From contig GL947595.1 in NCBI GenBank assembly GCA_000218745.1, forward strand, positions 621,038 to 682,431: a DNA stretch of 61,394 nucleotides, in the 5' to 3' direction. A program made the position numbers and the translations under genes. The notes under the pieces are model-generated. The model ran no database searches. It was not told where the DNA came from and worked only from the letters and a program-made list of their open reading frames with translations. Below, in pieces: positions 25,071-27,650 of the stretch (within the stretch, counting starts at the first letter, position 1; every line of letters starts with the position of its first letter). Source of the DNA: Prochlorococcus marinus bv. HNLC2 (GTDB lineage Bacteria; Cyanobacteriota; Cyanobacteriia; PCC-6307; Cyanobiaceae).

Positions 25071-25826
25071 GTGGAATCTTTTAAAAAAAATTTAGGCCAA
25101 TTGAATTTACAAGATAACCTTAATAACTCTTACAAAAATAATCAAATAATAGATTCTATCCTAATTATTGATACTGAGACTACAGGTTTAGATGAAAAGA
25201 AGGACGAAGTAATTGAAGTGGGATGTATTCTTTTTAACGTCCCATCAAAATCTGTCCTATCTCAACTTTCTTTTCTATTGCCTGTAAAAAATAATCAAGC
25301 TGAATTTATAAATAAAATTTCTGCAGAAATTTCTAATATTCCACAACCGTGGAATGATTCTTTGAATCTTTTTTTGAAACTAGTTAATTATGCAGATTTT
25401 ATTGTTGCCCATAATGTTGAGTTTGATAAAAAATGGTTTAATGATAAGAATTTACCATCACTTAATAAAAATTGGATTTGTAGTTTGGACGATATAGATT
25501 GGTCATTTATAAGATCCTTAAAAAGCAGACCCTCAGTTACAGATCTTTCAATAGCTTTCAACATACCTGTTTGGAATCTTCACAGAGCTTTAACTGATTG
25601 TTACTATTTATCAGAGGTATTTAAAAGATGTGAAAATCTTCAAGAAATATTATTTAATGCCTCGCAACCCAGATATCTTTATAAAGCGATAGTTAGCTAT
25701 GAAGATAGAACTTTAGCTAAAAATGCTGGATTTAGATGGAATAGTCCTGTACAAGGAGCTTGGACGCGAAAATTATCTGAAATTGAAGCTACTAACTTAG
25801 ATTTTAAAGTTGAGATTTTAGGTTGA
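25071..25826 (+). CDS. DEDDh 3'-5' exonuclease (DnaQ-like)
   Basis: 251 aa, GTG start. The exonuclease motifs are ExoI IIDTETTGL, ExoII VAHNVEFDKKWF and ExoIII HRALTDCYYLSEVF (His before Asp, so DEDDh). The first ~30 residues are Asn/Gln rich and the C-terminal ~60 form an extra domain containing NAGFRWNSPVQGAWTRK. It resembles the proofreading subunit of DNA polymerase III but could be a stand-alone DNA or RNA exonuclease. Confidence 0.85.
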   Translation: MESFKKNLGQLNLQDNLNNSYKNNQIIDSILIIDTETTGLDEKKDEVIEVGCILFNVPSKSVLSQLSFLLPVKNNQAEFINKISAEISNIPQPWNDSLNLFLKLVNYADFIVAHNVEFDKKWFNDKNLPSLNKNWICSLDDIDWSFIRSLKSRPSVTDLSIAFNIPVWNLHRALTDCYYLSEVFKRCENLQEILFNASQPRYLYKAIVSYEDRTLAKNAGFRWNSPVQGAWTRKLSEIEATNLDFKVEILG

Positions 25827-25841
25827 TTTATTACACTAAAT

Positions 25842-26273
25842 TTAATGGTTATTACATGGCATCCAAAGATTACCCATCTTGTGGACCCCTTTACAATTAA
25901 GGACTTTAGCCATTTCTTCAGCTTCCTTTTTATCCTTAAAAAGCATCATATTTTTATTCGATTTATTATCAATCTTTTTTTCTAAGAAAACTTTATCCTC
26001 ATGGTTATGATGATTATGAGATTTAGGGGAATACTCCCAAACACCCATTGTCGTTATGCCAGATGAAATTATCCCCATACCAACTATTGATAAATTTATA
26101 ATTCCCATAGCTACGGCTCCAAATGAAAAAACACCCATAGGAACAATACCTATACTTACAACACCCATAGGAACAATACCGATAGAAATAATTCCTAAAG
26201 GAGCTATACCAAAAGCAAATTTTTTTGGGCTTGTACCGCAATGAGAAGATTTTTGATTTGTATTTATTTCCAA
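25842..26273 (-). CDS. Glycine-decad repeat protein with C-terminal DUF3721-like domain
   Basis: 143 aa. Residues 22-81 are six head-to-tail 10-residue units, consensus GIVPMGVVSI, with Gly at nearly every fifth position. The stretch is hydrophobic enough to lie in a membrane or form a compact beta structure. A His-rich linker (HNHHNHED) follows. The last ~35 residues (EAEEMAKVLNCKGVHKMG, then WMPC) resemble DUF3721, a small Cys-containing domain of marine picocyanobacteria. The His linker and two Cys could bind metal; that is inference. It is divergent from hisS. Confidence 0.75.
   Translation of the reverse strand: MEINTNQKSSHCGTSPKKFAFGIAPLGIISIGIVPMGVVSIGIVPMGVFSFGAVAMGIINLSIVGMGIISSGITTMGVWEYSPKSHNHHNHEDKVFLEKKIDNKSNKNMMLFKDKKEAEEMAKVLNCKGVHKMGNLWMPCNNH
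26031..26210 (-). repeat. Six 30-bp coding tandem repeats
   Basis: This 180 bp block encodes the six 10-residue Gly units. The two central copies are nearly identical at DNA level (the plus strand shows acacccataggaacaatacc twice, 33 to 30 bp apart by eye). Outer copies have diverged. Such repeats can expand or contract, so copy number may vary between strains. Confidence 0.75.
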
Positions 26274-26369: not shown

Positions 26370-27650
26370 TTGAATAATTTAAGAAATCTCAGAGGAACAG
26401 CTGACCTCATGCCTGATCAATTGATAAAATGGCAGAATGTTGAGAGTATTTTAAGAGAACAACTTCAAAGATCATCAGTTAAGGAAATAAGAACACCAAT
26501 AATTGAAATGACAGAGTTATTTGAAAGAGGAATAGGAGAAACTACAGATGTTGTTTCAAAAGAAATGTATACATTTCTTGATAGAGGTGAAAGATCTTGC
26601 ACTTTAAGGCCCGAAGGTACTGCATCCGTTGTTAGAGCAATAATTAATAATGGTTTATCTAATAATTCATATCAGAAGTTATGGTATATGGGGCCAATGT
26701 TTAGGTATGAAAGGCCTCAAGCTGGCAGGCAAAGACAATTTCACCAATTAGGAGTTGAATACATAGGAAGTAATTCTCCTAGAAGTGATGTAGAGCTAAT
26801 TAGTTTAGCGTGGGATATTCTTCAGAAATTAGGAATTAAAAATTTAAATCTAGAAATTAATAGTCTTGGTGATATTGAAGATAGAGAGAATTATCAAAAT
26901 TCATTTATAGAATGGCTTGAAAGTAATTATAAATTGTTGGATATAGATTCTCAAAAAAGAGTTAAAAAAAATCCCCTTAGGATTTTAGATACAAAAAATA
27001 GCGAAACTCAGAATCTTCTTAAAAACGCTCCTGTTCTTATTGATTTTCTTTCTCAGAAAAGTCTTGATAGATATGCGCTTATCAAAGAAAATTTAGATTT
27101 TTTAAAAATTCCTTTTATTGAAAATGTTAAATTAGTTAGAGGATTGGATTATTACACTCATACAGCTTTTGAAATAACAAGTGGCGAACTCGGTTCGCAG
27201 GCTACAGTTTGTGGTGGTGGAAGATACGATAACCTGATAAAACAAATTGGAGGAAACGATTCTCCTGCTATTGGATTTGCTATAGGTTTAGAAAGATTAA
27301 TGCTTCTAGTAGGGAAAAATTTTGAAATTAAAAGGGATATTGATGTTTACATTATTAATAAAGGAATGAGAGCCGAAGCTATGGCTCATAAATTATCTAG
27401 CAAATTAAGAAAATATGATGTCATTACTGAAATGGATGTAAGCGGATCTTCAATCTCTAAACAATTAAAAAAAGCTAATAAATGTAAAACTAAAAGTATA
27501 ATTGTTATTGGAGAAGAAGAAGCTATGAAGAATCAATTTAAAATCAGGCTATTTTCTAATAATAAAGATAAAGAAAAGATAATAAATTTAGATGATGATG
27601 ATGGTTTAGAGAAATGGCTTAAAAATATTATTCCAGACTATTCAGCTTAA
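26370..27650 (+). CDS. hisS: Histidyl-tRNA synthetase
   Basis: 426 aa class II synthetase, TTG start (MNNLRNLRGTADLMPDQ). Motif 2 has MFRYERPQAGRQRQFHQLG and the histidine loops are LRPEGTASVVRA, RGLDYYTHTAFEI and CGGGRYDNLI. The C-terminal anticodon-binding domain follows from about residue 325. A small membrane-anchored protein gene starts 2 bp after its stop. Confidence 0.96.
   Translation: MNNLRNLRGTADLMPDQLIKWQNVESILREQLQRSSVKEIRTPIIEMTELFERGIGETTDVVSKEMYTFLDRGERSCTLRPEGTASVVRAIINNGLSNNSYQKLWYMGPMFRYERPQAGRQRQFHQLGVEYIGSNSPRSDVELISLAWDILQKLGIKNLNLEINSLGDIEDRENYQNSFIEWLESNYKLLDIDSQKRVKKNPLRILDTKNSETQNLLKNAPVLIDFLSQKSLDRYALIKENLDFLKIPFIENVKLVRGLDYYTHTAFEITSGELGSQATVCGGGRYDNLIKQIGGNDSPAIGFAIGLERLMLLVGKNFEIKRDIDVYIINKGMRAEAMAHKLSSKLRKYDVITEMDVSGSSISKQLKKANKCKTKSIIVIGEEEAMKNQFKIRLFSNNKDKEKIINLDDDDGLEKWLKNIIPDYSA

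Follow-up and report, generated by a model that had tools for sequence, protein, structure and literature searches.

The protein described here has its closest counterparts in two domain families and one class of repeat proteins. The GLTT repeat (Pfam PF01744) was described in nematodes and has no known function; it shares with our protein five-residue units with a Gly at a fixed place, but our protein has no LTT (XGLTT being the definition of the repeat) and its alternate pentads end in Met (Met or His in relatives). DUF3721 (PF12518) carries WMPC as its family motif. The domain of our protein contains WMPC and spans positions 1-32 of the 33 positions of the profile, but it is found at the end of a Gly-decad protein, whereas many other members are short, secreted-looking and mostly His-tailed. 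Pentapeptide repeat proteins (PF00805, PF01469), in which the consensus A-D/N-L-X-X forms a right-handed quadrilateral beta-helix (Rfr) and some of which work through surface mimicry or serve as rigid spacers, have the same five-residue period, but our protein gives no match to them at the curated level. No paper on DUF3721 or the GLTT repeat was found in the open-licence literature searched, which is a subset of what is in print and in which the word GLTT occurs, as far as the accessible text goes, only in a phosphonate review where its use appears to be unrelated. The other systems that invite comparison are those of cyanobacterial zinc metabolism, which, in the accessible parts of the reports, include uncharacterised small genes or new zinc proteins: in Synechococcus WH8102, whose zinc is also treated in PMC3865332, uncharacterised small genes of the Zur regulon lie beside the znu genes (PMC9337993), and ZepA is a newly found zinc protein of Anabaena (PMC10957091). 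The accessible parts of PMC9337993 and PMC10957091 do not name the protein considered here.

The gene for this protein lies in the window, i.e., the whole 61,394-nucleotide stretch of Prochlorococcus marinus bv. HNLC2 DNA that was analysed (Table 1). The sequence-only reading of this DNA had claimed Gly-containing decads followed by HNHHNHED and a Cys-containing DUF3721-like end, and the translated ORF is indeed built in this way: it matches GLTT with E=5.6e-16 (58.3 bits, curated cut-off 21) and DUF3721 with E=2.8e-15 (56.2 bits, curated cut-off 27). Since both scores are above the curated cut-offs, the architecture is not due to chance. Each part of the protein is found at a single place in the genome by genome search, and the position of the TTG start is shared with the window gene in the six relatives compared. 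In the segment N-terminal of the repeats, H11, C12, G13 and P16 are invariant in the alignment of 41 sequences. An NCBIfam search with the window protein gave no match, and a PHROGs search gave two weak matches only (E 0.057 and 1.7). The ORF thus encodes a real, conserved and uncharacterised protein of unusual design, which is carried by most Prochlorococcus genomes searched and whose function is so far unassigned.

Table 1. Coordinates of the gene, its parts, its neighbours and the porin-like genes found near relatives (positions in the window unless a locus is given).
Feature	Position	Strand	Basis and remarks
RNase_T-type exonuclease gene, convergent neighbour	25071..25826	+	Pfam PF00929
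Gly-decad / His linker / DUF3721 gene	25842..26273	-	ORF and Pfam; 143 aa, TTG start at 26273
DUF3721 (PF12518), residues 112-143, with C127, H131, WMPC 137-140 and H143	25845..25940	-	Pfam and AlphaFold
His stretch HNHHNHED, residues 86-93	25995..26018	-	Sequence; linker count over 80 loci
Gly-decad repeat block, residues 22-81, 12 pentads	26031..26210	-	Sequence and Pfam GLTT
HCGTSPKK segment, residues 11-18, N-terminal of the repeats	26220..26243	-	Alignment of 41 sequences
hisS, divergent neighbour	26370..27650	+	Pfam PF13393
Porin-like gene with His/Met-rich start	L060:3332-4531; L065:3481-4635; L066:3468-4622		Divergent to DUF3721 and Gly-decad gene pair

The repeat block divides into 12 pentads, or six decads (GIAPL GIISI GIVPM GVVSI GIVPM GVFSF GAVAM GIINL SIVGM GIISS GITTM GVWEY). 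The five-residue Gly rhythm noted earlier holds, with Gly as the first residue of 11 of the 12 pentads and Ser at the start of the ninth. The units alternate: Met ends pentads 3, 5, 7, 9 and 11, whereas in many of the intervening pentads the fourth residue is Ser and the last is hydrophobic. At the DNA level, the only tandem repeat is a weak one of 15 bases at 26130-26185 (3.7 copies, 70% matches). A scan of named genomes found 395 relatives, of which the best 80 were used (79 titled Prochlorococcus and one, L134, Synechococcaceae). In 77 of these 80 loci the distance from GIAPLG to MG(I/V)W, measured by pattern, is 58 residues, and the remaining three, read directly, have the same repeats. 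Variation of the copy number of a DNA repeat between strains, which had been predicted from the letters, was not seen and is rejected for the 80 loci, where the repeat block is constant and the codon changes are mostly synonymous. The count is fixed in these strains and shifts slightly only between genera: most family proteins compared have 12 units, G256 (L048) has one pentad fewer, and the g4, g5 and g7 proteins compared have two extra pentads.

Compared with the window in 75 loci, 34.8% of the repeat codons are identical, 53.8% are changed synonymously and 11.5% non-synonymously, versus 38.8%, 20.8% and 40.4%, respectively, for the DUF3721 codons, i.e., the repeats are far better kept as protein than DUF3721, despite the diverged repeat DNA. 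A block of constant length with mostly synonymous codon changes points to an old protein repeat under purifying selection and not to an unstable DNA array. In those full-length family proteins compared that reach it, the first residue of the ninth unit (the eighth in G256) is Ser or Cys, and the conservation of this start implies that the units have individual identity. In L116 and L152, the frame stops inside DUF3721 and the C-terminal end is lost, with the repeats unchanged; these two, L013 and G071:C2:81111-81530 have an early frame end or an internal stop in the gene, which perhaps are assembly errors or signs of decaying copies.

Within the genus, 107 of 121 genomes match the protein at E<=0.001: 90 have a best E of 6.1e-31 or better and 17 match more weakly, nearly all through the DUF3721 part only, which leaves 14 without a match. 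Among the more complete genomes of the genus, 41 of 42 match and 39 match strongly, two of the latter (G104 and G105) only through a second-paralogue type with 56-57% identity. In the phylum, 87 of 339 genomes match, of which 46 are from the same family (14 of the genus and 32 of other genera, with G390 weak only) and 41 are others; 30 of these 41 have E of 1.6e-9 or better, with matches confined to the region that precedes DUF3721. The 20 misses listed for this search, which had 232 further misses, include no genome of the same family. DUF3721 itself is present in 13 of 194 phylum genomes, all 13 of them from the window's family, and in 55 of 61 family genomes (a sample of about one per genus), being absent from four of the 34 more complete ones. 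Taken together, the distributions of the domain and of the repeats indicate a fusion that is seen only in the window's family and is common, but not universal, there. The wider form, seen in other cyanobacteria, is a Gly-decad protein that lacks DUF3721 and in most cases ends in a His-rich tail. A phage or viral origin was considered and rejected: no relative was confirmed among 19 pattern stretches checked in viral contigs, and a phage collection of 50,697 records gave no match.

In all 80 named loci (the best 80 of 395), the gene is flanked by the exonuclease gene on one side and hisS on the other, each with a match no more than 1.2 kb away. Searches of these loci with the E. coli fur, znuA, znuB and copA proteins gave no match up to about 8 kb on each side of the gene, with shorter flanks in 18 of the loci. 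No Zur-box-like palindromes above chance were found upstream of the window gene or of the relatives' operons; the matches near them have at least three mismatches to the consensus, which is not above the chance level in such AT-rich loci. A site with two mismatches to the same consensus is present 48 bases upstream of a znuC-like gene in L060.

Of the 32 family genomes outside the window's genus, 24 have a Fur-family gene no more than 5 kb away from the Gly-decad gene, versus 0.37 expected, a count that stands for a few events and not for 24 independent ones, the genomes being related. An ABC-3 metal permease is found within this distance in six of the 32 versus 0.29 expected, both expected values being calculated from gene numbers and genome sizes. 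In all 17 g4, g5 and g9 genomes, the best-scoring Fur paralogue is positioned tail-to-tail with the gene. In seven genomes (g2, g3, g8, two of three g10 and one of four g7), a different, lower-scoring Fur paralogue is nearby, and six of these seven also have the ABC-3 permease within 5 kb. That two different Fur paralogues are involved makes chance inheritance of one arrangement unlikely. The eight genomes without a Fur gene within 5 kb belong to g6, g7, g10, g11 and g12. DUF3721 is also encoded on its own, in proteins that often have signal or lipobox-like starts, as judged by eye, and mostly His tails. In all six g4 genomes, a DUF3721 match lies 0.3-0.8 kb from the ABC-3 permease by coordinates, and in the family locus L227:740-4031 (minus strand) a His-rich, secreted-looking DUF3721 protein is encoded directly downstream of an ABC ATPase and an ABC-3 permease; next on this strand come genes for a HupE_UreJ protein and then for a small c-type cytochrome.

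A panel of E. coli metal genes matched six of 12 family loci versus one of eight control stretches, the latter coming from two genomes. Outside the family, six of 34 loci, representing four genera, were matched versus one of 32 control stretches (40 random stretches were drawn as controls and 20 of them retrieved, two per genome). Of these results, only the family one is strong; the outside-family part is weak. The 34 outside loci include L185 and L186, and L085 was dropped as no repeat was found in it. The tandem repeats with Gly at every fifth residue in L186 (at about 9951) and L185 (at about 9581), of the GVVAS and GIAEV type, come from other cyanobacteria and are unrelated to those of the window protein. 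Beside some outside-family relatives, there are genes for a P-type ATPase, a multicopper oxidase, DUF411, CopC/CopD, a CopY-like regulator and CusA. Among the neighbours of relatives, the identities of ABC-3, FUR, CopC, CopD, DUF411 and the Penicillinase_R/CopY-like regulator are confirmed by Pfam/NCBIfam. The metal-type neighbours are mostly of copper type outside the family and of zinc type, Fur type or iron-porin-like inside it.

Potential metal ligands recur in the proteins themselves. At least three His residues in 12 are present in 66 of the 75 linkers that could be read by pattern in the 80 named loci (the best 80 of 395). In the other family loci, a His cluster is present in 15 of 26 linker rows, or, as seven rows repeat a genome, in 12 of 19 distinct proteins, a count that does not include L044 and L057, whose linkers are outside the reading of the pattern. 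All seven cluster-less proteins are of the second-paralogue type; for six of them an adjacent stand-alone DUF3721 protein was read, and all six of these proteins have a His-rich tail. In 28 distinct proteins from outside the family, which provide 179 units, the fifth residue of alternate pentads is Met in 72% of cases and His in 18%, with His in the first decads and Met in the later ones, and a tail with at least three His in 12 residues is found in 25 of 31 distinct outside-family proteins counted by genome (the pattern alone gave 25 of 29, missing L079, L176 and L187).

We put at about one half the probability that this is a cell-envelope protein that binds a metal, Zn or Cu, or hands it on. 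Several lines of evidence point this way: the Fur and ABC-3 neighbours in the family, DUF3721 proteins beside metal permeases, the porin-like neighbour, the metal-type genes beside some outside-family relatives, the His tails and the exchange between Met and His. The possible metal role raised in the sequence-only reading thereby gains support, as a possibility, from the His/Cys/Met pattern and the gene context of relatives. The exonuclease/hisS context in which no metal gene was found, the lack of a Zur box above chance, the weak panel result outside the family, the eight of 32 genomes without a Fur neighbour and the seven of 19 proteins without a His cluster weaken this reading, and a conserved neighbourhood is not a function. 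If the protein does act on a metal, the uncharged Gly-decad block would form a compact domain within the membrane or on it, in which the Met or His residues, ten positions apart, would line up as soft ligands for a metal. On the outer side, Zn or Cu would be collected by the His stretch together with the Cys and His residues of DUF3721, to be buffered or handed onward. DUF3721 was probably joined, in the Prochlorococcus/Synechococcus family, to an older protein consisting of Gly-decads and a His tail. It is also conceivable, though unlikely, that the Gly-decad block represents a novel type of repeat scaffold for metals, i.e., a compact, uncharged stack, membrane-embedded or membrane-bound, that, through Met/His at ten-residue spacing, would relay Cu or Zn along the envelope or across it, DUF3721 and the His stretch serving as a loading dock, and that it is among the genes that the most abundant phototrophs have in common.

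An AlphaFold model with 41 sequences has a mean pLDDT of 53, with the repeats at about 45 and without secondary structure; modelled alone, the repeats have a mean pLDDT of 41 and one uncertain helix. With such low values for the repeats in both models, neither a solenoid nor a two-helix anchor appears with confidence. DUF3721 is predicted better, with block means of 82-87 over residues 111-140, a helix at 115-124 and a hairpin of strands at 130-133 and 136-139. Searches for solved relatives by sequence gave none with the family profile and four chance-level hits with the outside-family profile (best E 0.23). When the 12 best Foldseek PDB chains for the whole model were rechecked, one row was obtained, a designed mini-protein aligned on the C-terminal part with a low Z (Z 3.1, rmsd 13, 57 aligned).

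The protein could instead be a structural or scaffold protein whose repeats form a two- or three-pass membrane anchor and whose C-terminal domain interacts with another protein; the metal neighbourhood would then be inherited gene order of no functional significance. Residues 22-78 (57 measured) contain no charged residue and have a GRAVY of 1.77, 19-residue hydropathy averages exceed 1.6 when centred anywhere between about residues 27 and 63, and metal context was not found around the gene in the 80 named loci, all of which fits an anchor. However, the hydropathy of the repeat block oscillates most strongly with periods of 2.5 residues (1.22) and 5 residues (0.86), whereas the value at 3.6 residues is low (0.285), which is unlike helices; together with the absence of charge, this suggests a strand-like repeat rather than helices. 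The Met/His exchange, the His tails and the two different Fur neighbours would also need another reason, and we regard the anchor as rather unlikely.

Quite improbable, in our view, is a short beta-solenoid of the pentapeptide type serving surface mimicry or acting as a rigid spacer, with no metal role. The strict five-residue period and the Gly at a fixed place speak for it, and the likeness to pentapeptide repeats proposed earlier has sub-threshold support: ten of 12 relatives outside the family have sub-threshold Pentapeptide_2 matches (best E 0.0026), as exemplified by relative L074, which reaches 16.4 bits with PF01469, under the cut-off of 26.4. For the window protein itself, neither PF00805 nor PF01469 is among the listed Pfam hits, from which most hits above E 0.1 were filtered out. 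Neither AlphaFold model contains a solenoid, though at low confidence, and the His tails and metal-gene neighbours would be left unexplained. Slightly less probable again is a membrane metal sensor that controls the activity of the neighbouring Fur or Zur and moves no metal, since, although a Fur-family regulator is the closest and most frequent metal-type neighbour (24/32), the tail-to-tail genes in g4, g5 and g9 do not form one operon and the gene persists in the 80 named loci, where no match to Fur was found close to it.

If handling of zinc or copper by an envelope protein is true, it would fill a gap in how Prochlorococcus cells manage metals at very low supply. The relatives are linked through gene order with regulators of the Fur/Zur type and with metal permeases, and a role that can be tested is thereby proposed for DUF3721 and for the GLTT-type repeats of cyanobacteria.

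A further arrangement is seen where a stand-alone DUF3721 gene precedes a second-paralogue Gly-decad gene: in L060, L065 and L066, the DUF3721 gene is divergent to the porin-like gene listed in Table 1. The L060 porin-like protein, the one copy compared with it, scores 95.4 bits with the NCBIfam SomB iron-uptake-porin model, just below the cut-off of 100, and two porin-like copies have no Pfam hit. Some family genomes also carry extra copies in the form of short Gly-decad proteins that have neither DUF3721 nor a His tail (L066:5628-5882 and L084:4962-5219).
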